The notes under the pieces were generated by a model, which was not told the origin of the DNA, searched no databases, and was given only the letters and a program-made list of their open reading frames with translations. Of a DNA stretch of 21,814 bases, positions 286 to 21,231 are shown piece by piece. The stretch comes from a virus. The stretch covers positions 1 through 21,814 of IMG/VR virus record IMGVR_UViG_3300025425_002733. The stretch is one strand, 5' to 3'. Numbering within the stretch: the stretch's first letter is position 1; the number at the start of each line of letters is the position of its first letter. Position numbers and translations under genes: made by a program.

Positions 286-339
286 ATGAAAAAACTTTTA
301 GGGATCGTGGTTCTGGGTTATAGGATTATCTGGGACAGA

Positions 340-2334: not shown

Positions 2335-5085
2335 TTACTTTTTCTTGCCTAAAAAATCAGGCCAACCTTTCCATTGTTTGATATAATAAGTTTGTGGACT
2401 GGAAGGAATGGTGTTTGGTTTTTTTTTAAATTGGATTAAATTTAAAAAATCTACATATCTATTTAGTTTAAATTTTTTTATGATTTTTTTAGCTTCATTG
2501 AATTTAACAAATATATCTTTTTTGTATTGGTCGGCAATTCTTCCAGTTCCTAAAAAATCACCAAGTGATACCCAGTCTTTACCATAAACTCTTTTGCCAG
2601 GGTACTTGGGTAAACCATAAGGAAGTTTATTTTTTTTTCCAATTATTATGTATTCTGAAAGTGATTTACATTTTAATTTTTTTGCAATCTTCCTAGCATC
2701 AGTGTAATTTAGATATTCACTTGACACACCTCTATTAGTGCCCAAAAAATCAATCCAGTTTTTCCAACCCTTGTTTTTATATGATCTGTTTGGAATCGCA
2801 GGAATTAAATGCTTATTTTCATAAGATTTATAAAAACTATAATAATCAGCTGAAATTTTAATATTATGAGATCTAACTAATTTTTTAACTTCTTTATATG
2901 AGATGAATTTTTTATTTTTATTATGAACTCTTCCTGTTCCAAGAAAATTTCCCCAATCTACCCACTTATCTATATAAACTTGATTAGGATTATAAGGAAT
3001 ATCTTTTGGAATTTTGTTTTGAATTTTGAGTTTTCTGAAATCTTTTAAATAATATATTTTTTTTTGTTGAACATATTTTTTTGCGTCCTCATATTTTCTG
3101 AAGTTAACAACAGCAACCTTATCCCAAACCTTTAATTTAATAGCTTTATCAAATTCCTCTGCTTCAATTTTATAAAGACTATTTACTGAAGTTATTCCAT
3201 CAACTGGAGATCCACCTTTAGGTTTTTTACCTTCTGCTATTACTCTTAAATATTCAGTAATTCTTGTGTCTGTTGTTGCTAAAGCCCTAACGGTCAATGC
3301 AATATCATCAAACCCTTGTTCTTCAGCAGCTTCATTAAAATCAGCTCCATCTGGAATAAATATTGGAATTAGTATGTAACCAAATTTTTTTCCTTTAGAT
3401 AAACGAAGCGCACGTCCAGCAGCTTGAACAATATCAACCTTACTTCTCTTTGGATCAGTGAAAACTACACAATCAATTGCGGGTAAATCCACACCTTCTG
3501 TTAAACACCTAGCATTAGTCATTAACCCTTCACCTTCAGCAAAATTTCTCATTTGAATTGCTCTATCCGATGTTGGCATATCTCCTCGAACGTGGAAGGA
3601 TTTAAGCTTTCCATATGATGGAAAAATCTTTGTAATTAGATCTTGCTGTACTCTAAAGTTATCAGCTCTTCTTATTGATCTATGAAATGATATAGCGTTC
3701 TTAATTTTTAGTTTCTTAATTGCTTTTCTTAATGCAATAGCTGTTGCAAACTCTCTTGCTGTAATATCTTTTAATACCTTCTTAACCTCTAGGTATTTAT
3801 TAGATTCATATATTTCCTGTATCTCTGGTGTTGTTATTCCAAAAGTGATTATTTTATAGTCAGAAATAATAGGTGGCTTTGAATTAATTGCATCCTTAAA
3901 GCTTAACTCATACATTAAATCTCCATAATCTCTAGGATCATCCATTGACATAAACTCATCGCTATCCCCTCTAAATAATCTCTCTGTTGCAGTCATAAAG
4001 ATACGTTTTTTAATCTTCACATATTTTTGATGCAGTAGATGAGCCATCTCTTTAGTTTTAGATCCAACTGTCTTATGAGCTTCATCCATTATACCAAGGT
4101 CATACGTAAATCCTTTTGATCCCTTTGCTGTGGCTCTTCCAGATTGGTAAGTAGTGAAGACTACTTTTATCTTTGATGTCTTTTTCTTTAGAAATTGTTT
4201 AATTAAACTTGGATCCGTATCAACTTTAATACCAAGATCAGCAGTATCAGTTACATAGTCATCTTGTTCATCTTTTACGGTTCCATCACTACATACACAA
4301 AACCATTCAGGTTCAATTCCATTGATTAAAAACTCTCTAGTCCAAACTTTTAAAGTTTGTTGAAGTAGGGCTAAACTTGGAACGGCAACTAATATTGACT
4401 TAACTCCCATTTGTTTTGCTATCCAAAATGCAGTTAAACTTTTACCTGTTCCACAAGGCATAATAATTTTACCTCGTTCATTAGATTTAAAATGTTCAAT
4501 TGTTTTCTTAATAGCAACAACTTGATGAGGCCTAGGTTTTAAAATAGTTGGTTTATAAACTTTACCAACAGTTTTTGCTTTTATTTGAGTAAATAAATCC
4601 CCATCATCTAAAGCAAGCCAAGTTTCTAATGTTTCAAAACCAATACTCTTTAATAACTTTATCTTCTTTGGAGGTTTGTTAACTGTTGCACAAACAATTG
4701 CGTGAGTAATATTCTTACAATACGTAAAAGCTAAATTGTTAAAAGTAGATAAGTCTCCCTTAACAGTTAATGTTTCATTAGGGTCAGATCTATATTTGCA
4801 TTGAATGGCCCAGTATTCTTTATCAAAAGTTTCGGCTATTAAATCAATACCCTCATCCGTATTAGGTAAATTTAGTTTCTTTTTAATATTATTTGGTACT
4901 TCATTAAGTAAATAAACTTTTCTTAATTTAGATTTATAATGAGGAGCTGTCTCTAAATAGAGTTTGGTTAAATACTCAAAAATATCTCCTGCAAGTTTTG
5001 AACGTTTAGATTTAGTAAAGCCCTCTAAAGTCTTGTTTAAATCTTTCCAGGATTTAGAACTTTGAATAATCTTTTTAATATTCAT
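2335..5085 (-). CDS. Mrr-like nuclease + SF2 DEAH helicase with C-terminal DFLG repeats
   Basis: A 916-aa multidomain protein. Residues ~25-155 resemble an Mrr/PD-(D/E)XK restriction domain, with Asp81 in EGIDLIAE and Gln95-Cys-Lys97 in the QxK position. Residues ~180-600 are an SF2 helicase: Walker A CGTGKS (211-216), DEAH (334-337), FMTATER, TEGVDLPAIDCVVFTDP and motif VI QAAGRALR (554-561). The C-terminal ~240 residues hold about four ~60-aa repeats ending in W..W.DFLGtgr, a unit known from other helicases and phage-integrase-repeat proteins. Together this resembles a single-chain restriction or DNA-translocating defence enzyme. No methyltransferase is nearby, so how self DNA would be spared is unknown. 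It is the last gene of a leftward operon, 23 bases after the 123-aa gene. Confidence 0.85.
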   Translation of the reverse strand: MNIKKIIQSSKSWKDLNKTLEGFTKSKRSKLAGDIFEYLTKLYLETAPHYKSKLRKVYLLNEVPNNIKKKLNLPNTDEGIDLIAETFDKEYWAIQCKYRSDPNETLTVKGDLSTFNNLAFTYCKNITHAIVCATVNKPPKKIKLLKSIGFETLETWLALDDGDLFTQIKAKTVGKVYKPTILKPRPHQVVAIKKTIEHFKSNERGKIIMPCGTGKSLTAFWIAKQMGVKSILVAVPSLALLQQTLKVWTREFLINGIEPEWFCVCSDGTVKDEQDDYVTDTADLGIKVDTDPSLIKQFLKKKTSKIKVVFTTYQSGRATAKGSKGFTYDLGIMDEAHKTVGSKTKEMAHLLHQKYVKIKKRIFMTATERLFRGDSDEFMSMDDPRDYGDLMYELSFKDAINSKPPIISDYKIITFGITTPEIQEIYESNKYLEVKKVLKDITAREFATAIALRKAIKKLKIKNAISFHRSIRRADNFRVQQDLITKIFPSYGKLKSFHVRGDMPTSDRAIQMRNFAEGEGLMTNARCLTEGVDLPAIDCVVFTDPKRSKVDIVQAAGRALRLSKGKKFGYILIPIFIPDGADFNEAAEEQGFDDIALTVRALATTDTRITEYLRVIAEGKKPKGGSPVDGITSVNSLYKIEAEEFDKAIKLKVWDKVAVVNFRKYEDAKKYVQQKKIYYLKDFRKLKIQNKIPKDIPYNPNQVYIDKWVDWGNFLGTGRVHNKNKKFISYKEVKKLVRSHNIKISADYYSFYKSYENKHLIPAIPNRSYKNKGWKNWIDFLGTNRGVSSEYLNYTDARKIAKKLKCKSLSEYIIIGKKNKLPYGLPKYPGKRVYGKDWVSLGDFLGTGRIADQYKKDIFVKFNEAKKIIKKFKLNRYVDFLNLIQFKKKPNTIPSSPQTYYIKQWKGWPDFLGKKK

Positions 5086-5481: not shown

Positions 5482-5748
5482 TTAGTTTAACACACTGTGT
5501 CCCCTGTTAATTAGACATTTTCTGATCAACGATTCCTTTTTAGTATCCATTGTTGGACTTAAAGACCAATAAACAATATTCCCGACAAAAGTAGAGTTGT
5601 CTTTAGCTATTGTTTTACAATGTTGAATATCGTTTGTTATTTCTTTTGCTTGATCTGTATTAAAAGTTCCTGATTTTCCAGCAGTATCTATAACTGGCTT
5701 ATAACTACAGGCTTGTAACAGTAACATTATTATTATTATTTTTTTCAT
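5482..5748 (-). CDS. Small lipoprotein, glycine-zipper-family ends without the zipper
   Basis: An 88-aa precursor with a short hydrophobic signal and lipobox LQAC (Cys14), so it should be a lipid-anchored periplasmic or outer-membrane protein. The mature part begins CSYKPVID and ends IRKCLINRGHSVL, with DIQHC in the middle. These blocks match the two ends of the family of glycine-zipper lipoproteins, but the glycine-rich middle is absent. The same blocks occur in the rightward lipoproteins at 6465-6722 and 8550-8798. It has a good Shine-Dalgarno (AAGGAG, complement of 5755-5760 area) and is first in the leftward operon. Confidence 0.75.
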   Translation of the reverse strand: MKKIIIIMLLLQACSYKPVIDTAGKSGTFNTDQAKEITNDIQHCKTIAKDNSTFVGNIVYWSLSPTMDTKKESLIRKCLINRGHSVLN

Positions 5749-6464: not shown

Positions 6465-6722
6465 ATGAAGAATATATTTTTGATTATATCTATAAGTTTT
6501 TTAATTGTTGGTTGTGCTTATAAACCTTTAATCAATCCAGAAACCTCTAAAGATCCAGTTACTGGGGAAAGTATAGCAGGTAACTATTGGAAAGATTTGC
6601 ATGCATGCAGATATATTCATGAACAAAATACTGGTGTGGCAGTCAAGAAACTTGGCATATCTGACAAGAAGATATTTGTTAAAAAATGCATGGAAGATTA
6701 TGGTTATTCAATCTTGAGATAA
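6465..6722 (+). CDS. Small lipoprotein, copy 1 of duplicated pair
   Basis: An 85-aa precursor with a hydrophobic signal and lipobox IVGC (Cys17). The mature part begins CAYKPLINPETSKDP and has DLHACRY and a terminal KKCMEDYGYSIL block. These features place it with the leftward lipoprotein at 5482-5748 and, at its ends, with glycine-zipper lipoproteins, here without any glycine zipper. It is nearly identical in its first two thirds to 8550-8798. The next gene begins two bases after its stop, so it is the first gene of the UDG-like/nuclease operon. A surface role such as excluding other phages is possible but unproven. Confidence 0.8.
   Translation: MKNIFLIISISFLIVGCAYKPLINPETSKDPVTGESIAGNYWKDLHACRYIHEQNTGVAVKKLGISDKKIFVKKCMEDYGYSILR
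6507..6556. repeat. 50-bp exact direct repeat, copy 1
   Basis: Bases 6507-6556 are identical to 8592-8641 (period 2085). Both lie in the same codons of the two lipoprotein genes. The repeats flank exactly the two genes 6724-8553. Confidence 0.85.
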
Positions 6723-7296: not shown

Positions 7297-8553
7297 ATGA
7301 GAAACATCTTTGATCAATATTCTCAACCAGAAAACCGTTTAACTCATGCTTTAATATCTAGCTTAAATGAAGATAAAAAATTGCTGTCTAGCTTTATAAA
7401 GAAGTTTTGTAATAACTATTTTTCTGATGTTGGTTCACTAAAAATTGACCAACAAACTTTACCAGGTCTTAAATCTCTACAAAATTTAGAAGGAGGCAAA
7501 AAAGGTCTGCCCGATGGAGTTATATACAATGATGAAAAATGCTTAATTATAGAGTGTAAAATAAACCTTGAGCTTACTGAAGATCAACTGATTAGACATG
7601 AACGAACCGTTAAAAGAAAAGGCTTTGATAACACTTTTGGTCTAACAATCACGAAAGATCCTATCTCAAATATTAATTTAAAAAACTGGATACACATTAC
7701 TTGGAAAGAAGTTTATAATTGGGCTTATGAGGAAAAAAGCAAATCGAATTGGTCTCTTAAATTATTAGATTATTTGAATGTTGCTGAAAATAAAATGGTA
7801 GAAGACGAATATTTAACAGAAGGTTCAATAACAGAATTCAATGGAATTCATTTTGATAAAGAAAATGAATATACATATTTAGAAGGTAAAAGATTATTAA
7901 AACTCTTAATAAAAAAGATTAAAAGTCATAATGTTTTAAAAAGTGAACTTGGGATGCATATTGATGCAAAACAAAAAAGAGGTATTAAAGATGAAGGAGC
8001 ACTTTGGGATTATTTAACATTCACTTCATTAAAAGATAAAGCTTCATTTACAAGCCAACCACATGGAACAATTGCATTATGGCATAATAAAGCTAGTGCA
8101 GCCATTACAATTCCAAATGGAATGGGAGGAAGTTTTAAAAAAAAAATTAAAAAACTTACATTTAATCAATTTGAAGAAATGACTTATGATGTTGCAAAAA
8201 ATTATTTTAATAATTTTGGTAATAATCCTGGTTTTAGACCTTCTATTGGCACATATCAAAGAAGATGGTTAACGCAAAGCTCTAAACCTTTTAATGATGG
8301 AGAAATTAATTTTGATATGAGAACGGCATTTAAAGAGTTTGCATCAACTTTAAAACCCGAATTAAAAATTCAGAAAGAATGGTTAAAGATTATTTATGAA
8401 TTTATTAAAAATAAAAACTCAAATATGCAAATTGGCTTTGGTGCGGAGTTTTATTTTACCAAGCACAACATGATCAATAATAAAGATGCTGATCAAGTAA
8501 TTGTTAAATCACTTTTATCATTAAAACCTTTGGTGGATGTATTATTTAAATGA
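7297..8553 (+). CDS. PD-(D/E)XK nuclease-like protein, putative defence effector
   Basis: A 418-aa cytoplasmic protein. The N-terminal domain (1-~150) starts NIFDQYSQPENRLTHALISSL. It has the PD-(D/E)XK core: Asp73 in LPDGVIY, Glu86-Cys-Lys88 in LIIECKI, and Gln97 on the following helix. The remaining ~260 residues, with LEGKRLLKLLIKKI, ALWDYLTF and a basic SFKKKIKKL stretch, match nothing I can name. The 'QPENRLTHAL' opening is typical of nuclease-like proteins found near defence genes. It is translationally coupled to the following lipoprotein (ATGA overlap at 8550-8553) and lies three bases after the UDG-like gene. Confidence 0.7.
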   Translation: MRNIFDQYSQPENRLTHALISSLNEDKKLLSSFIKKFCNNYFSDVGSLKIDQQTLPGLKSLQNLEGGKKGLPDGVIYNDEKCLIIECKINLELTEDQLIRHERTVKRKGFDNTFGLTITKDPISNINLKNWIHITWKEVYNWAYEEKSKSNWSLKLLDYLNVAENKMVEDEYLTEGSITEFNGIHFDKENEYTYLEGKRLLKLLIKKIKSHNVLKSELGMHIDAKQKRGIKDEGALWDYLTFTSLKDKASFTSQPHGTIALWHNKASAAITIPNGMGGSFKKKIKKLTFNQFEEMTYDVAKNYFNNFGNNPGFRPSIGTYQRRWLTQSSKPFNDGEINFDMRTAFKEFASTLKPELKIQKEWLKIIYEFIKNKNSNMQIGFGAEFYFTKHNMINNKDADQVIVKSLLSLKPLVDVLFK

Positions 8554-8798
8554 AAAATATTCTAACTATTATATTTTTAAGCACACTGATAGTTGGTTGT
8601 GCTTATAAACCTTTAATCAATCCAGAAACCTCTAAAGATCCTGCTACTGGAGAAAATATTGCAGGAAATTACTGGAAAGATCTACATGCTTGCAGATATA
8701 TATTTAAACAAAACACTGGAAAATTAGCAATCTTACCTGATGAAAAGGGGTTTATTAAAAAATGTATGAAAGATTACGGCTATGCTATCTTGAGGTAA
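8550..8798 (+). CDS. Small lipoprotein, copy 2 of duplicated pair
   Basis: An 82-aa precursor with lipobox IVGC (Cys17), then CAYKPLINPETSKDPATGE, DLHACRY and a terminal KKCMKDYGYAIL block. It is very close to 6465-6722 except for the stretch between residues ~57 and ~66, where the two differ in length and sequence. It overlaps the nuclease stop by four bases. The 50-base identity to copy 1 suggests recent duplication or insertion of the two genes between the copies. Confidence 0.8.
   Translation: MKNILTIIFLSTLIVGCAYKPLINPETSKDPATGENIAGNYWKDLHACRYIFKQNTGKLAILPDEKGFIKKCMKDYGYAILR
8592..8641. repeat. 50-bp exact direct repeat, copy 2
   Basis: Identical to 6507-6556, inside the second lipoprotein gene. 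Recombination between the copies would delete 2085 bp carrying the UDG-like and nuclease genes and leave one lipoprotein. Confidence 0.85.
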
Positions 8799-8810
8799 AA
8801 ATTAAACATT

Positions 8811-9380
8811 ATGGATAAAAATATCGAAGGTAATGAAATATCTCAACTAGCCCAGAAAAGTCTAAATCATATCGAGACAAAAGAACTTTCTAAAACTGAA
8901 CTTATAAATTTTTTTAATAATATTAATAATAGTACAAAAATAACAGACTATGAGAGAGAAGTTTTAACAGAAGCTGTTGAAAAAAAAATGCGTGTCAAAT
9001 TTCCCAAAAGTGCAAAAGGAATTTTAGGTGGTAAAAGTGCTAAAGCCCAAGAGCTACTTGAAGAAATTTTTAGTGTATTAATAAAAGAATTTGATTGGTC
9101 AAACAATAAAGTTAAGACCAAAGTGAAAGATGGTGGAAAAATGATAAGTGGTGAATGGTTTGTTGATTGTTATATTTCCTATAAAAATAATGATGATTAT
9201 GCAACAGGATTTGGCTATATACAAAAAAAACCAGAGGAAGACCCATTTCTATCAATTAATTACGGGAGAGTTGGAAAAAAATATGAAAATGAAACCAAAG
9301 AAGAAAAAAACTTTCCAGTTGAATTAAAAGATGATGCTTTAAATCTTTATAGAAATTTCCTAACCAAAACTATTAAATGA
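8811..9380 (+). CDS. Hypothetical 189-aa protein
   Basis: I do not recognise this protein. It is soluble, with a helical N-terminal half (residues 1-~95, containing LTEAVEKKMRVKFPKSAKG and KAQELLEEIFSVLIKEF) and a strand-rich C-terminal half (GEWFVDCYISYKN, YATGFGYIQKK, FLSINYGRVG). It sits 12 bases after the second lipoprotein, and its stop overlaps the next ATG by four bases, so it belongs to the cargo operon. No catalytic motif is visible. Confidence 0.7.
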   Translation: MDKNIEGNEISQLAQKSLNHIETKELSKTELINFFNNINNSTKITDYEREVLTEAVEKKMRVKFPKSAKGILGGKSAKAQELLEEIFSVLIKEFDWSNNKVKTKVKDGGKMISGEWFVDCYISYKNNDDYATGFGYIQKKPEEDPFLSINYGRVGKKYENETKEEKNFPVELKDDALNLYRNFLTKTIK

Positions 9381-9550
9381 AAAAAATTGAAAAATACTTT
9401 GAAGGAAAAATATCTTACAAAGCAATTGATGATTTTGTTGATAAAACTAGAGCAGCATTAGACCCTGATGATGATTTTTATATTGAATGGCATATTCAAG
9501 AAGATTATCAATTTATAAGTGTTAATGTTGTAGATAGAGTACTTCATTGA
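9377..9550 (+). CDS. LH-family small acidic protein, copy 1
   Basis: 57 aa, too small for many gene callers. The start ATG overlaps the upstream TGA (ATGA at 9377-9380), and the stop overlaps the next ATG (TGATG). It shares with 10541-10714 the pattern GKxSYxxIDxxxDxxRxxLDPDDxF, then a strand with Q.I, ending DRVLH. The third member is at 9729-9908. Three related ORFs with conserved protein sequence but diverged DNA argue that the gene is real. The function is unknown; the size, acidity and repetition recall anti-effector or antitoxin-like small proteins. Confidence 0.75.
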   Translation: MKKIEKYFEGKISYKAIDDFVDKTRAALDPDDDFYIEWHIQEDYQFISVNVVDRVLH

Positions 9551-9726
9551 TGAAAAAAAAAGAAATTGATAAGCCAGGATTTCGAAAAACTATCAAATAC
9601 ATTTATAATAACTTTAGCTTTGATTACCTTGTAGAGACGTTATTTGAATATATATTTAAAGGCCTGTTGATTTTTGGTAGTATTTTTCTTGTGGTAAAAC
9701 TAATTAAATTTTTTTGGTTCATCTAA
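9550..9726 (+). CDS. Small inner-membrane protein, 58 aa
   Basis: It starts at the A of the TGATG overlap with the LH gene before it. The first ~30 residues are basic and polar (MKKKEIDKPGFRKTIKY). Residues ~35-57 form a hydrophobic segment (LLIFGSIFLVVKLIKFFWF), so one transmembrane helix is expected. It is translationally coupled to the LH protein, which may be its partner. No family is recognised. Confidence 0.65.
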   Translation: MKKKEIDKPGFRKTIKYIYNNFSFDYLVETLFEYIFKGLLIFGSIFLVVKLIKFFWFI

Positions 9727-9728
9727 AA

Positions 9729-9908
9729 ATGATAACCTTTAAAAAAACATTTGATTATTATGCAACGGATAATGAACTGGGTGATTATATAACTTTAATG
9801 GCAGATGTTGTTGAGGGAGATATCGATCCACAAATAGATTTTGATGTTGAGAGTGATGATGAGCATCGTTATGTTATTGTTAATATTTTAAATCAAGCTT
9901 TGCATTAA
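9729..9908 (+). CDS. LH-family small acidic protein, copy 2 (divergent)
   Basis: 59 aa from the ATG at 9729. An upstream in-frame TTG at 9714 would add five residues but overlaps the previous gene, so the ATG is preferred. It aligns end to end with the other two copies: M-x-x-F-x-K-x-F near the start, an IDxxxDxxx-type helix, DPQIDFDVE, a strand RYVIVNI and the ending NQALH. It is the most divergent and most acidic member. The next gene follows after four bases. Confidence 0.7.
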   Translation: MITFKKTFDYYATDNELGDYITLMADVVEGDIDPQIDFDVESDDEHRYVIVNILNQALH

Positions 9909-9912
9909 TAAT

Positions 9913-10371
9913 ATGATCTTTGGAATGTTGCATGATCCATTACCTGACGCTGAATTTATTTTAGATAGATTTAGAGAAATTAAAAAAAAATTACATCTCA
10001 TTTATAAGAAAAAAAATTATTTTGTTGAAGGTGATCTTGAAAAATATTTCAAAAATAAAGAGATAATTTGGACACCTCCCTCTTATGAAGTGAAAAAGAT
10101 TAAAAAAAATGAAAAAATTACTATGAAAAATTGTGATAAATTTAACTGGCAATATAAAAAAGATGAAAACTTTACGTTTCATTTGATGCCTATGTTTGGA
10201 GTTGCCTTTAGGTGTTACTCACTCAATTTTCCAGGTTTTGAAGCTGTAATGGAGTTCAGGAAAGAAGATAAGAATATAGTATTAAGAACACAATCTGATG
10301 ACACATCAATAAAATCTACAAGACTTGCTAAATATTTACAGAAAAATTATAAATTTTATAATCCTACTTAA
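9913..10371 (+). CDS. Hypothetical 152-aa protein
   Basis: I do not recognise this protein. It is lysine-rich, with an N-terminal helix (LPDAEFILDRFREIKKKLHLIY), a central strand region (FNWQYKKDENFTFHLMPMFGVAFRCYSLNFPGF) and a C-terminal helix. There is no signal peptide. It follows LH copy 2 by four bases. The position 'gene directly after an LH gene' repeats for the 58-aa membrane protein and the 180-aa protein. Confidence 0.7.
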   Translation: MIFGMLHDPLPDAEFILDRFREIKKKLHLIYKKKNYFVEGDLEKYFKNKEIIWTPPSYEVKKIKKNEKITMKNCDKFNWQYKKDENFTFHLMPMFGVAFRCYSLNFPGFEAVMEFRKEDKNIVLRTQSDDTSIKSTRLAKYLQKNYKFYNPT

Positions 10372-10388
10372 TTGTAATAATAAAAATT

Positions 10389-10544
10389 ATGTCAACATTT
10401 TATAAATCAATAGTCATAGCAGGTGCAGGCATAGGACTTGGTTGGGGTGTAGCAGAAGGATATGGTATTGGTGGAATTATAGGTTTGATGTTAGCAGGTG
10501 GATTTATTGGAGCAATGATTTCACTATTAAAAGAAAAAAAATGA
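10389..10544 (+). CDS. Small glycine-rich membrane protein, 51 aa
   Basis: Reads from ATG 10389 to TGA 10542-10544, overlapping the next ATG by four bases. The sequence is dominated by SIVIAGAGIGLGWGVAEG and IGGIIGLMLAGGFIGAMISLL, two short hydrophobic helices rich in G-x-x-G spacing, so a glycine-zipper membrane hairpin is likely. Such proteins can oligomerise in membranes; pore or holin-like behaviour is a guess. A longer frame that overlaps it from 10442 is an artefact. Confidence 0.7.
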   Translation: MSTFYKSIVIAGAGIGLGWGVAEGYGIGGIIGLMLAGGFIGAMISLLKEKK

Positions 10545-10714
10545 AAACTTTTGTGAAAACTTTCAGAGGAAAAATGTCTTATACTAAAATAGATAAATAC
10601 ATTGATTTAGTTCGTAGAACCCTAGATCCAGATGATTATTTTGATTTAGAAATTCAATATGATGAAGGTTGGCAGTATATAAGAATTGAAGTTTGGGATA
10701 GGGTGTTGCATTAA
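10541..10714 (+). CDS. LH-family small acidic protein, copy 3
   Basis: 57 aa, starting at 10541 in an ATGA overlap with the small membrane protein and ending at 10714, where its final A starts the next ATG. Strongly similar to copy 1: GKMSYTKIDKYIDLVRRTLDPDDYF, then WQYIRIEVWDRVLH. The frame is open further upstream to 10442, but that extension is read out of frame through the membrane protein and lacks any resemblance to the other copies. Confidence 0.75.
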   Translation: MKTFVKTFRGKMSYTKIDKYIDLVRRTLDPDDYFDLEIQYDEGWQYIRIEVWDRVLH

Positions 10715-11256
10715 TGGACTTTATAGACAAATTAGATAAAAAATTATCTGATAAAAAAAATAAAAAGAAATTAAAAGAAGAAGAAGAAAGACTAGAATAT
10801 GAAAAACGAGTAGAATTATTTAAGCCAATTCAAAACTTTTGTATGGAAGTTTATGAAAAACACTTGGCTGATGATTTTATAAAATTAGAAAAACTATTTA
10901 AAAAACATACCAAAAATCAAAAAGCAATTCGTATTTTATTTAATAGTAGGGGTCTTCTATCAAAATTAGAAATTGAATTAACATATGACGAAATTAATTA
11001 TCACACACAAGAGATAAAAATTCAATTTTGGCACAAAGATAAAAAAGAAGTAAGTCTTTACTCTAATGAGCTAGAACACATTAAAGCTTATAAATTTCTT
11101 GATACCAATTTATGTTTAAGAGTTTATTCTTGCACTGCTTCTGTTGATTACACAGAATTTGAATTAAAAGATAAAGAAAAAGCATATGAATATTTTAATG
11201 ATTTGTTTCAAAAAGAAATCATATCGTTTGGAGAAGATATGGGAGTTATTAAATGA
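10714..11256 (+). CDS. Hypothetical 180-aa coiled-coil protein
   Basis: Residues 1-~55 are highly charged and lysine/glutamate-rich (DKKLSDKKNKKKLKEEEERLEYEKRVELF), a likely coiled coil. The rest is mixed, with RILFNSRGLLSKLEIELTYDE, an IQFWHKDKKEVSLYS strand pair and a C-terminal helix. No family is recognised. It shares one base with LH copy 3 (TAATG) and four with the following secreted protein. Confidence 0.7.
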   Translation: MDFIDKLDKKLSDKKNKKKLKEEEERLEYEKRVELFKPIQNFCMEVYEKHLADDFIKLEKLFKKHTKNQKAIRILFNSRGLLSKLEIELTYDEINYHTQEIKIQFWHKDKKEVSLYSNELEHIKAYKFLDTNLCLRVYSCTASVDYTEFELKDKEKAYEYFNDLFQKEIISFGEDMGVIK

Positions 11257-11621: not shown

Positions 11622-12269
11622 ATGAAAAGATACTTAACGAGGTTTAAAATTTTAGCTTTTTTAATAATTGGTTTAATTGTTGTTGGTTGTTCAAGAGAAG
11701 ATAAAGATCGTAAAGCTATATCTCACTGTTCTGATATTAAATTCATTAGTTATGCCAATAATAATCCACACTTATTCATTGATCCTTCAAAGGCGATAGC
11801 TGAAACAAAGAAACGAGATATAAAAATAAAAGAATGGATTAAAATTAACCATGATCCAAAAGATTTAATGTCTATAGGAAAATTAAGAGCCAAAATGAAT
11901 AACAAAGTTGATGAGATTAGCTACCCACTCCACCTAGAAACTATTTTTATATTCTCTAAAGCCCTAAATGTTACGATGTTAAATGATAAAATAATTGACT
12001 GGGCAATAGACTACAAAAGAGAAGAGCTTAAAAATTATGAGATTTTTTATCAAGAGTGTGTTGATGAGTATATGGTGGAATATGCAAAAATGAATGAAGG
12101 TGAAGATTTTATTAAGAAGTATTACGAGTGGCAAAAGCAAGATGTTTCTAATCTAAATAAATATCATCACAAAGTTTTTGATGACATTGAAACTTTTTCA
12201 AAAGACTATCCATTCACAACTGTAATGTGGGAATTACAAAAGAAATTGATGAAAGCTGTACCAAGATAA
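11622..12269 (+). CDS. Lipoprotein, 215 aa, unknown function
   Basis: The N-terminus has a basic start, a hydrophobic core (FLIIGLIVV) and lipobox VVGC (Cys23), so it is predicted to be lipid-anchored. The mature part is alpha-helical and charged, with ICF-type short motifs absent and two further cysteines (SHCSD, QECVD). It is unrelated in sequence to the three small lipoproteins. It starts three bases after the secreted protein and closes the cargo operon, since a 63-base gap follows. Confidence 0.75.
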   Translation: MKRYLTRFKILAFLIIGLIVVGCSREDKDRKAISHCSDIKFISYANNNPHLFIDPSKAIAETKKRDIKIKEWIKINHDPKDLMSIGKLRAKMNNKVDEISYPLHLETIFIFSKALNVTMLNDKIIDWAIDYKREELKNYEIFYQECVDEYMVEYAKMNEGEDFIKKYYEWQKQDVSNLNKYHHKVFDDIETFSKDYPFTTVMWELQKKLMKAVPR

Positions 12270-16262: not shown

Positions 16263-16488
16263 ATGTGATGAGAAGAAGTGTTTACTAAATGATAGAGAAG
16301 ATGACATATCAATTTATATAGACCATGAGATCACAGCATTAATCCAAAGAATAGAATTAAGAAACACAGATGTTCACCCTGGTTGCTTGCATGTTTTAGT
16401 TAAGAAACATCTTGAGTATCAGTCTGTAAAAATATTTGCAGAACTCATGGAAAAATATCCAGGTGGTGAAGAAGTGAGGATATCTTAA
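16231..16488 (+). CDS. Hypothetical 85-aa protein
   Basis: Starts at ATG 16231 preceded by AAGGAAG. Contains two N-terminal cysteines (NKCDEKKCLLN), then DISIYIDHEITALIQRIELRNTDVHPGCLHVLVKKHLEYQSVKIFAELMEKYPGG cut into helices. The stop shares a base with the start of the helicase gene (TAATG), suggesting translational coupling to it. No family is recognised. Confidence 0.6.
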   Translation: MVLLKSNKINKCDEKKCLLNDREDDISIYIDHEITALIQRIELRNTDVHPGCLHVLVKKHLEYQSVKIFAELMEKYPGGEEVRIS

Positions 16489-18998
16489 TGAGTATTGTTA
16501 ATAAAAATATATCCATAGTAAATAAAAAATCAAAACCCATAGAAGAGAAAGCAAAAAAAGAACTTAAGTTAGGTATTGCTCCAAGTAATGGTAAGGATTG
16601 TAATCCTAGTTTTGTCTGGGCCATGCAAGAGTTGACTGGAACTGAAAATGCTTACTATCATTATAGAAATCATAAGAAGGAAAATTGTTTTTATATAAGA
16701 AGATATGAGCCATATGACAAAGGTAATGATAGCCCTAAAAAGAAAATAATCCCTTATTCTTATGACTTAATTACTGCTACCTGGGTTTGTTATGCCTGGG
16801 AGAAGAATAGACCTTTATTCCATGAAGATAGATTAGACCTACATAAGCCAGTGATAATTGTAGAAGGTGAGAAGACTGTTCTTGAAGCTGAAAAATTATT
16901 CAAAGAATATAATGTTGTTACTTGGAGTGGTGGTTCTAAAGCTATGAGCCATACTACCTATGAAGTACTTAAAGATAAAAGAATAATCTTATTTCCAGAT
17001 AATGATAAGCCAGGTGTTCTGGCAATGCATGAAGTAGCAAAGATATTAATTGAAGAAGATATTTCAGATGATGTCTCTATGGTTACTTTACCTAAAGGCT
17101 TGCCTGATGGATGGGATTTAGCAGATCAAATAAATATACCTGGAGTTACCTATGAAGGAATATTAGATAGCCACACAGAGTATGACCCAGAAGAACACAG
17201 TAAGATTTGGGAAAAAATAAATAAGAGAGATGACAAAAAGAAAACTAAACAAACTGTAAAAGCTATCGCTAAAGATTATTGTTATATTATGGCAAATGAT
17301 ATGTATAATAAAATTGGTACTGGAGATTTCTTCAACTCTTCCCAATTAAATAATATGCACAGTCACCAGGTGGCAGAAGGAACTCTCACAGAAAAACTAT
17401 TGAATGACCCAATGTTTTCTAAAGCTGAAACTTTTGTAACCAGTGCAAAGTTTAAACCTGGACTACTAGAGATTACAAAGCCTGGGACTATTCCATTGAT
17501 AGACAAAGGAACTGTATTAAATATTTATATCCCTAATTACTTATCTCCAAAGAAGGGTGATGTTAAATTTCTAATTGATCTTTTTATATGGCTTATAGGT
17601 TTAGATAAGTGGAAGATCATTGAGCAATGGATAGCCTACAACATCCAATACCCAGGAGACAAAATGAAGTGGGCTATTGTATTAGTGTCAGAGATAGAAG
17701 GAGCTGGTAAAGGATTGTTGGCTAGAATTATCTCAAGAATACTTGGTCAAGCTAATGTAAATGAAAATGCTAACTACAAACATCTTGTCAACACACACAA
17801 TACTCTTTTAATTGGAACTCAAGTTTTAGTACTGAATGAAGTATCACTTGGAGATTTTAAAAGTAAAAGTGAAGGAACCAACTCACTTAAGAACTTTGTA
17901 GCAGATGATATCTATTCATGTAACTTCAAAGGGAAGCCAATGGTTAAGCTGGCCAACTTTACTAACATCATGTTATTCTCAAATGACATAACTGTATTAG
18001 GTGTAAGTAATGGGTCCAGAAGATATTTCTTTTGTAAGATCAATAGATCAGAAGAAGAGTTAATAAAAATTACAGACAATGGAACTTTCCAGAGAGCCTG
18101 GGATTTTGTTGATAGTGATGAAGGAGCTTCTTACTTAATTAATTATTTTAAGAATGAAGTAAAGATACCAGACATAACAATCTTCAAGAAAAGAGCTCCA
18201 CAAACTGCTGATCTAATAGAGTTAATAGAGCAGTCCAAACATCCAATGCAGAAGATTTTGGAACACGATTTATCCAGACCAGACCTACTAAATAGAAGGA
18301 TATTTAGTGGTAGTTTTGCTGGGATTATAACCTTTGATGAGCTTAATGAAGCCTTAAGAACTACTGATAAAGATGAGACTAAACAATTTAAGTGGCCTTC
18401 TTATGGAGATGACGCACTATATAAATTTTTAACAACCAACTCCAGCAGATGGAACAATGGAGATACTACCAGGCAGATAAGTATAAAAGGTGTCAGACAG
18501 AGGTTTCATTTATTAGATGACAGTAGATGTCCTATTCCTGGGAAGAGTTACAAAGATTTAACTCCTAAACAAATAGAAACTATCTACCTGGACTATGTGA
18601 AGATTTGTAGTGCCATCCACAATGAGGAACCAGATTACCATGAAGCAATCAAACTGGAGCCAGAAAAAGTTGAAGCACTTAAGAAGAAGCTTGAGAGTGA
18701 CTGTAAGGAATCAAAACATAAGTATCGTTCCGATTATGCTGGCAGAAACCCAGAAGAACTTTTTGATAATCTTATGACTGGAACTGAAAAGCTTGCACAC
18801 AATGACCAGTTCCAAGTAGAGAGTATAAGGAAGATGAGAATTATTCTGTATAGAGGAATAAGAACCCCAGAAGCAATCCTATCAGATTTTTCTAATGATA
18901 TTCCTTATCCAATGAAGCCAGAGTTAGCTCCCAATATGGAACTCAAGACTTATCCTGAAGGTTTAGGCCCAGAGAAGAAAGTAGCTTTTGGCCTATGA
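16488..18998 (+). CDS. Replication protein: TOPRIM domain + SF3 (DUF5906-like) helicase
   Basis: An 836-aa protein, the likely replication initiator or fork helicase. TOPRIM region ~118-215: Glu126 in IIVEGEK, then LFPDNDKPG with Asp171 and Asp173. SF3 helicase region ~360-530: Walker A EGAGKG (404-409), Walker B-like VLVLNEV (446-452), polar LFSND motif (496-500) and NGSRRYF (508-514). The remaining ~300 residues are probably a winged-helix C-terminal part. No CHC2 zinc finger is seen, so primer synthesis is uncertain. The architecture parallels satellite P4 alpha and D5-type proteins of phages. Start by TAATG coupling to the preceding gene, preceded by GAGGA. Confidence 0.88.
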   Translation: MSIVNKNISIVNKKSKPIEEKAKKELKLGIAPSNGKDCNPSFVWAMQELTGTENAYYHYRNHKKENCFYIRRYEPYDKGNDSPKKKIIPYSYDLITATWVCYAWEKNRPLFHEDRLDLHKPVIIVEGEKTVLEAEKLFKEYNVVTWSGGSKAMSHTTYEVLKDKRIILFPDNDKPGVLAMHEVAKILIEEDISDDVSMVTLPKGLPDGWDLADQINIPGVTYEGILDSHTEYDPEEHSKIWEKINKRDDKKKTKQTVKAIAKDYCYIMANDMYNKIGTGDFFNSSQLNNMHSHQVAEGTLTEKLLNDPMFSKAETFVTSAKFKPGLLEITKPGTIPLIDKGTVLNIYIPNYLSPKKGDVKFLIDLFIWLIGLDKWKIIEQWIAYNIQYPGDKMKWAIVLVSEIEGAGKGLLARIISRILGQANVNENANYKHLVNTHNTLLIGTQVLVLNEVSLGDFKSKSEGTNSLKNFVADDIYSCNFKGKPMVKLANFTNIMLFSNDITVLGVSNGSRRYFFCKINRSEEELIKITDNGTFQRAWDFVDSDEGASYLINYFKNEVKIPDITIFKKRAPQTADLIELIEQSKHPMQKILEHDLSRPDLLNRRIFSGSFAGIITFDELNEALRTTDKDETKQFKWPSYGDDALYKFLTTNSSRWNNGDTTRQISIKGVRQRFHLLDDSRCPIPGKSYKDLTPKQIETIYLDYVKICSAIHNEEPDYHEAIKLEPEKVEALKKKLESDCKESKHKYRSDYAGRNPEELFDNLMTGTEKLAHNDQFQVESIRKMRIILYRGIRTPEAILSDFSNDIPYPMKPELAPNMELKTYPEGLGPEKKVAFGL

Positions 18999-19339
18999 AA
19001 CAGAACTCCAGAAAAGCGAAGGGCAGATATCTTCAGAATATTGTAAGAGACAGGATAGTTAAATTATATCCATCACTCACGAAGAAGGATATTAGAACTT
19101 CAACAGTAGGAGAGAATGGAGCTGATGTTAAGTTACTAACTAATACAGCAAAGAAACTATTTCCTTATTCTGTTGAGACAAAGAATGTTAAGTCTTACAG
19201 ATTACTGTATGAGGCCTTTAGACAGGCCAAGAGACACACCAACATGGAACCATTGCTAGTCTTAAAAGGTCAGAGAGAAAAGCCTGTGGTGATCCTGGAC
19301 ATGGAACACTTCTTTGAATTGTTAGAAGGAGAAGATTAA
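18995..19339 (+). CDS. PD-(D/E)XK nuclease, resolvase-like
   Basis: A 114-aa protein with the PD-(D/E)XK pattern of small phage endonucleases/Holliday-junction resolvases: GENGADVKLL (Asp44), YSVETKNV (Glu61, Lys63) and AFRQAKRH (Gln77). The N-terminal GRYLQNIVRDRIVKLYP helix is usual for this group. It overlaps the helicase gene by ATGA, so both are made together. A role in resolving branched DNA during replication or recombination is the likely one; the substrate is not proven. Confidence 0.72.
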   Translation: MKQNSRKAKGRYLQNIVRDRIVKLYPSLTKKDIRTSTVGENGADVKLLTNTAKKLFPYSVETKNVKSYRLLYEAFRQAKRHTNMEPLLVLKGQREKPVVILDMEHFFELLEGED

Positions 19340-19442: not shown

Positions 19443-19471
19443 GGTTGAGAGGATATTTAAAGGACTATAAT
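19443..19471 (+). promoter_or_regulatory. Promoter with perfect TATAAT, preceded by GGTTGAGA tandem
   Basis: TATAAT is at 19466-19471, and TTGAGA (19445-19450) can serve as -35 at a short 15-base spacing. GGTTGAGA is repeated at 19434-19441 and 19443-19450, a possible activator or repressor site. The predicted start of transcription (~19478) favours the ATG at 19569 over that at 19470 for the next gene. Confidence 0.55.
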
Positions 19472-19568
19472 GTTTTGTAATTTGATTGAAAGCTCTGTAA
19501 AATATAACTTCTGGTGCTTAACTACACCACCCTTACATAAGTTAATTAACAGTAACAAGAGTACAACA

Positions 19569-20501
19569 ATGACAATATTAAAAGGCCAGGCAGAACTAGA
19601 TAGTTTCAAACTTACGAAGAAGGAAGTGGCAGATTATCTAGGTATATCAACCAATGCAGTCCGAATGTCTATGAAGGGAAACAATTATCACAATTTGGAT
19701 TATCGTTTTGATGGCTACCAATATCTTTTTAAAGTTCCAACGAGACCTCGTGTTTACATAGCAGACCACACCACCCCTGGTCCAGAGCCAAGATCAAATA
19801 AAACAAGTACTCCTGGGATTACTCCTGTGAAATCTAAAGTTAACAGAGGAGCTACTCATAGAGGGGAAGCAAACTATAAGAACCAGGCTACTAAATTATA
19901 TAATGAGGGTAAGATATTAAAGAATATTGAAGACAAATTTAAAAGCCCAGAGCATAAAAGAATATTTAACGACATGACCCAGGCCAACTGGGATAAGGCC
20001 TATGAACAAAGCTTGAAAGAGAAAGAAGCAGAGTTTCAGAAAGAAAATCCTAGGATTAACCCTAGAGGTACAGTCATGGGAAGCCCTAGAACTCATGGAG
20101 TATATGGGGGCATGTTAAATGGAAAAGGGTTACAGAATATAGATAATAAGGAACACCAAAGATTGGCCAGACGAGAAGAAGAAGCAAATGGTATTAAAAT
20201 GCAAGAAAAGTACATTGAGAAACCTCAAATGGATGGCTCATATAAGAGAGAGCTTACTAGAATAAATGTTCCAGACTTTTCAGATAGAAGCTCCAACAGT
20301 TCCTTCTTTGTTGGTCGTGCTGTATATGATGATTTTAGCCAGGACTATCATGTTGATAAAGAAGATGTAGCAGTCTCATTCTCACAATATGATTTGGATA
20401 GATATGGCAAGCCAGAAGAAAGAACTGAATTTAAAAGTAAGGTTGAAGAAAGTATTTACAGGACCAAAAAACATCTACTGAAGACCAGGGGCTCGTATTA
20501 G
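19569..20501 (+). CDS. HTH-bearing 310-aa protein
   Basis: The N-terminal ~60 residues hold a helix-turn-helix (KLTKKEVADYLGISTNAVRMSM), then a strand-rich DYRFDGYQYLFKVP. A linker with TPGITPVKSKV follows, then a long, mainly helical region with no named motif (ATKLYNEGKILKNIEDKF, KAYEQSLKEKEAEFQ). An upstream in-frame ATG at 19470 with an SD would add 33 residues unlike the rest. That ATG overlaps the TATAAT of the promoter, so I prefer 19569. It may be a regulator or a DNA-end/origin-binding protein of the element. It is transcribed apart from the replication operon. Confidence 0.65.
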   Translation: MTILKGQAELDSFKLTKKEVADYLGISTNAVRMSMKGNNYHNLDYRFDGYQYLFKVPTRPRVYIADHTTPGPEPRSNKTSTPGITPVKSKVNRGATHRGEANYKNQATKLYNEGKILKNIEDKFKSPEHKRIFNDMTQANWDKAYEQSLKEKEAEFQKENPRINPRGTVMGSPRTHGVYGGMLNGKGLQNIDNKEHQRLARREEEANGIKMQEKYIEKPQMDGSYKRELTRINVPDFSDRSSNSSFFVGRAVYDDFSQDYHVDKEDVAVSFSQYDLDRYGKPEERTEFKSKVEESIYRTKKHLLKTRGSY

Positions 20502-20972: not shown

Positions 20973-20979
20973 ATTTCCG

Positions 20980-21108
20980 AGTGAGAACAAAATGTTCTCT
21001 TGCTTAACTTGGGTTCTCTTTCAAAAAGTTAATGTAATCAACAACTTCTTGAAACTTTTCATCAGGAATATCTTTATATGAGTTGCCAAACTTCTCTTTG
21101 ACACAGAT
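20980..21108. other. attR, right copy of 129-bp attachment repeat
   Basis: Identical to 366-494. It supplies the last 34 codons and the stop of the gene at 21004-21231 and the dyad at 20983-20999 located four bases after that stop. The gene stays intact, which is the usual outcome when an element carries a copy of its target's 3' end. Confidence 0.9.
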
Positions 21109-21231
21109 AGCAACGTGGGCGTAGGGGTTCCTTCCTTTTGGGTGATTTGGATGACTTGGTAATTGACCAAGTAAATAATCACCAGCTTCCTGTATCATTT
21201 TCCAGAGTTTACGCCGATTATCATCATTCAT
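21004..21231 (-). CDS. Attachment-site host gene, 75-aa ORF6C-like protein
   Basis: An intact 75-aa protein whose C-terminal 34 codons come from the element side of attR. HVAICVKEKFGNSYKDIPDEKFQEVVDYINFL resembles the end of phage antirepressor ORF6C-type domains ('SYKDIPxxxFxEVxxYI'). The N-terminal part contains GDYLLGQLPSHPNHPKGRNPYAH. It may itself be a phage-derived gene kept by the host. The start ATG at 21231 has no strong SD. The resemblance is by motif only; its function is unknown. Confidence 0.7.
   Translation of the reverse strand: MNDDNRRKLWKMIQEAGDYLLGQLPSHPNHPKGRNPYAHVAICVKEKFGNSYKDIPDEKFQEVVDYINFLKENPS

Follow-up and report, generated by a model that had tools for sequence, protein, structure and literature searches.

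In Methylopumilus, the fGI-2 region was described as additive flexible genomic islands with recurring tRNA-end repeats, in which small islands of 330 bp to 42 kb follow each other in series and about 80% of the encoded proteins are unknown (PMC10872708). VEIMEs, tycheposons, PICIs and PICMIs have been named as phage satellites or marine integrative elements, and integron CALINs and MITEs as cassettes that are mobilised by the enzyme of another element (PMC11389934). The kind of element considered here is thus known in outline, both as additive islands with tRNA-end repeats (PMC10872708) and as marine satellites and hitcher elements (PMC11389934). No description of the protein family termed LH in the following, of its spread over many sites or of the match between the arms of islands and circular elements in SAR11 was found in the literature searched, which does not prove that they are new. 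The SAR11 bacteria, which possess small genomes, count among the most abundant groups of the surface oceans. SAR11 strains differ in many short hypothetical genes, the mode of spread of which is, to our knowledge, poorly described. We consider it reasonably probable that LH travels as stand-alone cargo on satellite-like elements and on mini-islands without integrase, whereby the latter are probably moved in trans and their ORFs shuffled whole.

The window, i.e., the whole stretch of DNA analysed (21,814 nucleotides of the IMG/VR record IMGVR_UViG_3300025425_002733), holds an element of about 20.6 kb between two 140-bp direct repeats (360-499 and 20974-21113), which are 98% identical. The left copy comprises the 3' part of a 75-aa attachment gene and a terminator-like palindrome, while the intact gene, a conserved SAR11 gene serving as attachment site, locates to 21004-21231 on the minus strand; its labelling as 'ORF11CD3-like' was rejected, as there was no Pfam match. 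On the plus strand, the element encodes a tyrosine-type integrase (600-2273; PHROG 1, E 4e-14), a primase/helicase (16488-18998), a RusA-like resolvase (18995-19339) and an HTH protein (19470-20501). The cargo zone (about 5.1-12.3 kb) holds the string of LH genes, duplicated lipoproteins and a PDDEXK-like protein (weak, E 0.005), and it is adjoined by a minus-strand gene for a Type IIG-like restriction protein consisting of an Mrr-type nuclease and a helicase (2335-5085; PADLOC E 4.5e-89). One lipoprotein cargo gene (11622-12269, plus strand) has a homologue in L057, an LH-bearing Pelagibacter region. Small lipoprotein genes starting with CAYKPLINPETSKDP are duplicated at 6465-6722 and 8550-8798 and occur also at 5482-5748 on the minus strand; the duplicates share 81% DNA identity over 170 nt and each stands ahead of a different larger gene, a pattern which resembles that of LH in that a small gene is repeated and its neighbour changes. 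At positions 1-359, ahead of the left attachment site, a glyoxalase-like gene is represented by its C-terminal part, after which come an MKKLL start and ACTAGAC arm-like repeats, and this stretch is apparently the end of another island abutting the window element.

A search with the window primase led to eight IMG/VR contigs from viral metagenomes (L004-L011), seven of 8.9-9.2 kb and one of 14 kb, all of which carry terminal direct repeats of 29-141 bp and are for this reason probably complete circles. Primase and RusA are common to all of them, as is a protein homologous to the window HTH protein, and five (L007-L011) encode an integrase related to that of the window. The 239-aa HTH protein homologue of L007 matched the terminase small subunit family PHROG 57 (E 1.7e-5), a match that the window copy did not give. 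In the 14-kb member, about 5 kb are taken up by genes for small cargo proteins, most of them secreted. No structural genes were recognised in the window element and in L004-L011 among the proteins scanned, which covered the small ORFs in part. One trait of phage satellites, namely an integrase and a replication module without structural genes, was found for the window element and for L004-L011. The latter are likely a family of SAR11 satellites, and the window is an integrated relative of them, which is larger and has LHs among its cargo.

A first-pass annotation of the window had placed three related small ORFs in the cargo zone, and all three are present on the plus strand at exactly the positions claimed, namely LH1 (9377-9550, 57 aa), LH2 (9729-9908, 59 aa) and LH3 (10541-10714, 57 aa). 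LH1 and LH3 are 49% identical (BLAST, one-genome search, E 9e-14); LH2 is more distant (21-25% pairwise identity to the other two), and in profile-profile comparison its subfamily matches the LH1/LH3 subfamily over the full length (E 5.6e-9). For both subfamilies a beta-alpha-beta-beta order was predicted by AlphaFold, with a pLDDT of 83 for LH3 and a weaker one of 73 for LH2. BLAST, profile-profile comparison and predicted fold thus bear out the assumption of a single true family. The supposedly common LDPDD-type block is found in LH1 and LH3 (class A), whereas LH2 (class B) is without strict LDPDD and has GDIDPQ; likewise, the description as acidic applies to LH1 (pI 4.7) and LH2 (pI 4.1), is mild in LH3 (pI 5.7) and fails as a rule for the family, the pI of which ranges from 4.1 to 9.4. 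Across the family, LH proteins are 57-62 aa long and fall into four sequence classes, i.e., LDPDD, DIDPQ, ...FDEKIS and ...KRCLN. Pelagibacter relatives are 56-96% identical to the window LHs, and for close LH pairs omega is about 0.03-0.3, mostly 0.03-0.25 (Nei-Gojobori), which denotes strong purifying selection of these small ORFs across relatives; LH is therefore conserved as an encoded protein and not as DNA alone, and its ORFs do not exist by chance. Pelagibacter chromosomal copies are 96% (LH1), 88% (LH2) and 86% (LH3) identical, and since each LH is closer to its chromosomal copy than to the other two, the three did not arise by local duplication. The relative of LH1 is found in L012, where the flanking sequence is unrelated, and that of LH3 in L016 (5279-5449). 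Searches of LH against Pfam, NCBIfam, PHROG and PDB sequences gave sub-threshold matches only, and Foldseek against PDB and BFVD returned nothing at E <= 1e-3; its best match, a 57-aa mycobacteriophage protein (TM 0.74, E 0.026), was treated as a common small fold.

LH was identified in 11 of 397 genomes sampled across the order (genome-contig scan and profile searches) and, using a better profile, in 22 of 399 Pelagibacter genomes (genus by record titles), meaning a patchy occurrence in about 5%. The collection scans, which detect close relatives only, found LH in none of 278 other alphaproteobacterial genomes, gave nothing significant in 50,697 phage records and revealed no IMG/VR contig with LH besides the window, the circular elements L004-L011 included, so that the window is the sole LH-bearing integrase element seen. 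A match in the viral contig L003 proved to be a chance LDPDDYFD in an unrelated protein. So far, the LH family was found only in Pelagibacterales (SAR11). The alternative that survives best assumes LH to be an anti-defence or anti-phage protein, which satellites string together with similar genes and which acts alone on a common target. Patchy distribution, the presence of three divergent copies in one cargo region and carriage by satellite-like elements beside restriction and nuclease genes are in line with this; nuclease- or defence-like neighbours are the Type IIG-like REase-helicase in the window and HNH, T5orf172 and MkoA/PDC-S37-like proteins elsewhere. However, neither homology nor a fold match to a known anti-defence protein was found, many neighbours are secreted proteins without a link to defence, and LH is not uniformly acidic, hence no simple DNA mimic, an idea which was dropped in view of the pI range. 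An anti-defence role is accordingly regarded as conceivable but rather doubtful.

The window LHs have changing neighbours, all on the plus strand. LH1 overlaps the directly upstream 189-aa gene (8811-9380) by 4 nt and is followed with a 1-nt overlap (TGATG) by p58, a single-TM protein of 58 aa (9550-9726); LH2 is followed after a 4-nt gap by the 152-aa p152 (9913-10371); and LH3, the start of which is overlapped by p51, a glycine-rich small membrane protein of 51 aa (10389-10544), is followed with a 1-nt overlap (TAATG) by the 180-aa p180 (10714-11256). Each LH hence directly precedes a different gene (at -1, +4 and -1 nt), as originally described. For p152 and p180, no significant family match was obtained in Pfam, NCBIfam, PHROG and PADLOC. 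Sensitive profile searches, which had been proposed along with the claim of variable partners, found the LH family ahead of other partners in Pelagibacter, the followers being secreted proteins starting with MKKLLGIVVLGLL, small TM proteins, a 4-TM protein, HNH proteins and other LHs, and such changes of partner were found repeatedly. A follower lies within -4 to +5 nt for 22 of 35 LHs, while for 11 of the 35 there is no gene within 30 nt downstream.

From this arrangement the first-pass annotation had derived an antitoxin or immunity array, in which each LH would neutralise the toxic product of the next gene. Small and sometimes acidic proteins ahead of membrane or nuclease-like genes, with overlaps, would fit such an array, as would the recurrent pairs of LH with a 62-aa TM protein (three loci), an HNH protein (two) and the 4-TM protein (two). 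However, the consistent pairing expected of a toxin-antitoxin or immunity pair was not found. The 62-aa partner, matched in 17 of 300 genomes, has an LH upstream in two of 15 loci examined and none in 13, other genes preceding it elsewhere, sometimes with the identical TAATGG overlap; LH stands before the HNH partner in one of three genomes and is missing in two. Furthermore, about a third of the LHs are without a close follower, as mentioned above, three LHs stand in tandem without partners in L012, the followers, for the most part secreted or membrane proteins, are of unrelated kinds, the predicted LH model contains neither an HTH nor a ribbon-helix-helix, and no significant toxin or antitoxin homology was obtained for LH, p152 and p180 (Pfam, NCBIfam, PHROG, PADLOC). 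That LH keeps changing its neighbours argues against each LH guarding a fixed toxin partner, and an antitoxin or immunity pairing is therefore unlikely; what endures of the original reading is a true conserved family with changing partners and nuclease- or defence-like neighbours.

It is likewise improbable that LH serves as a translational-coupling leader, the task of which would be to supply the following gene with ribosomes. A leader would suit the finding that, where a gene follows closely, LH mostly shares exactly 1 nt with the ATG of that gene, about 10 nt upstream of which the C-terminal DRV/DKV codons often give AGG or AAG, and overlaps or gaps of 1-4 bases had been taken as a sign of translational coupling. 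Yet for same-strand SAR11 neighbours of 150 codons or more, taken from 20 control regions, the median gap was 2 nt and 57% of the pairs fell within 5 nt, so that the spacing between LH and its follower is ordinary in these genomes and coupling was dropped as a special LH feature. In addition, LH is often the last gene of its island, and its sequence varies at synonymous sites, whereas the amino acids are conserved over the entire length. Where all genes abut, a small conserved protein with a changing partner should thus not be taken for a toxin-antitoxin system by default.

Most LH loci sit in recurring chromosomal spots. By self-comparison, direct repeats of 27-156 bp were found to bracket LH in 19 of 28 non-window loci as compared to two of 20 control regions (Fisher p 8e-5); in the remaining nine loci no bracketing repeat was found at this sensitivity, some contigs being short. 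The repeats are ends of tRNA-Thr, -Leu, -Met, -Ser, -Gly or tmRNA, or else the 5' end of the 75-aa protein gene or an MKKLLGIVVLG start, so that 19 of the 28 loci show at both borders the direct repeats of a tRNA, tmRNA or protein-gene end that characterise a tRNA-type mini-island. The bracketed units comprise 0.8-3.7 kb (median 1.6 kb) and 2-5 genes, and none of the 19 gave a significant integrase match when queried with the integrase family of the window and the satellites; together with the arm repeats detailed below, this corresponds to CIME- or hitcher-like elements, which have attL and attR without an integrase of their own. Both control-region matches turned out to be islands of this kind that lack LH, located at tRNA-Leu and tRNA-Met. 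In L012, L068 and L071, island units lie side by side, and some of these contain no LH; SAR11 thus possesses a wider class of mini-islands, for which LH is one type of cargo. That LH is instead a mobility factor of these islands (an excisionase/RDF or integrase helper) is very improbable, since, although it recurs in many small islands without integrase, it is spread over many attachment sites, which presumably depend on different integrases, is missing from neighbouring or control islands, a finding for which together with the many sites an excisionase role was dropped, was not found in the integrase-bearing relatives L004-L011 and has a predicted model that is not winged-helix.

Two further observations concern the content of these islands. 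In L012 (4124-7854) and L056 (638-2763) the bounding repeats lie in the start of an MKKLLGIVVLG signal-peptide coding sequence (ATGAAAAAACTTTTAGGGATCGTGGTTCTGGGTT); nearly identical in DNA, this start heads many unrelated secreted proteins in LH islands and is also seen at window positions 286-330, and it may be an attachment site at which new cargo is joined to a signal peptide already in place. An AAA helicase-type protein of about 1530 aa is encoded near LH in two Pelagibacter genomes (L053 953-5539, L065 8339-12934) by a candidate SAR11 defence gene, the L053 copy of which is matched by PADLOC MkoA/MkoC/PDC-S37 (E about 1e-36 to 1e-39).

In three circular elements (L007, L008 and L010) a 5'-end fragment of the 75-aa gene lies beside the integrase, i.e., of the same gene that borders the LH islands L013, L054 and L060. 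The 46-nt end of the L060 island matches L008 at 40, L009 at 37, L010 at 41, L011 at 42 and L007 at 35 positions, a match that covers one attachment site only, while the best control match comprises 26 positions in about 200 kb of control DNA. At the opposite island end, paired ACTnnnnn repeats followed by GAGATAAA are present in islands and in L007, L010 and L011. Such matches are what non-autonomous islands served by one integrase family would show, and judging from these sequences the LH islands without integrase are probably moved in trans. The paired arm repeats (L053 6990, 7257 and 9536; L013 6680; L054 9443; L060 4642) differ between islands (ACTAGATAC, ACTCGACAC, ACTATACC, ACTAGTAGC) and agree within one island, hinting at arm-type specificity of different integrases.

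As for the cargo itself, nine of 13 LH pairs with at least 90% DNA identity have no detectable common flank, the homology ending at the ORF ends. Window LH1 and its L012 counterpart are 98% identical, with 30-nt flanks at about 37-40%, and the gene order is LH1-p58-LH2 in the window versus LH1-LH3type-LH2 in L012, where p58 holds the slot of the LH3-type gene, a difference that looks like a one-ORF swap. A conserved motif adjoining LH that would explain such ORF-precise exchange was not found.

Within the reading of LH as stand-alone cargo, LH would be a cytosolic small domain transported on mobile DNA by two kinds of carriers: (i) satellite-like elements that integrate and encode an integrase, a primase, RusA and a protein resembling the terminase small subunit, with the window as an integrated example, and (ii) tiny islands without recognisable integrase, bounded by repeats of tRNA, tmRNA and protein-gene ends. 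The islands would be integrated and excised in trans by integrases of the first carrier type or of phages, whole cargo ORFs would be exchanged, which would explain why LH meets different neighbours, and the operon of shuffled cargo would be read through start/stop overlaps. With low confidence, LH is suggested to act alone in phage/satellite conflict, probably through binding to a protein of phage, satellite or host rather than as antidote to the product of the next gene, a functional reading drawn from the company of LH and not from homology. Slightly short of even odds are given to the wider proposal of a two-tier cargo system in SAR11, in which integrase suppliers of about 9-20 kb stand beside arm-bearing, recombinase-less islands of about 0.8-4 kb that are moved in trans, and in which ORF-precise swapping of mini-genes makes new operons. 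If this holds true, such swapping keeps making new operons in streamlined genomes. As LH islands are very small, have exact borders and recognisable attachment sites, and share their arm repeats with candidate helpers, a route of SAR11 gene exchange becomes directly testable.

Compared with known systems, LH resembles type II toxin-antitoxin or immunity arrays in being a small protein ahead of a changing partner, but differs from them by the absence of obligate pairing, of an antitoxin DNA-binding fold and of toxin homology. With integron CALINs and MITEs (PMC11389934) the LH islands share the nature of non-autonomous cargo that would require a helper recombinase in SAR11; however, neither attC nor terminal inverted repeats were seen, and their ends resemble the arm-repeat-bearing attachment sites of tyrosine integrases. 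Like VEIMEs, tycheposons, PICIs and PICMIs (PMC11389934), the window element and L004-L011 have an integrase, a primase and no recognised structural gene, and L004-L011 in addition circular forms among viral metagenome contigs and a protein whose L007 copy resembles TerS, whereas a core of about 9 kb with a SAR11 attachment gene sets them apart. Finally, the LH islands parallel Methylopumilus fGI-2 (PMC10872708) as small islands in series with variable content, bounded by tRNA-end repeats, but they differ in residing in SAR11 at several tRNAs, the tmRNA, the 75-aa gene and a signal-peptide start, whereby one protein family recurs across these sites and integrase-bearing elements share the arm repeats.
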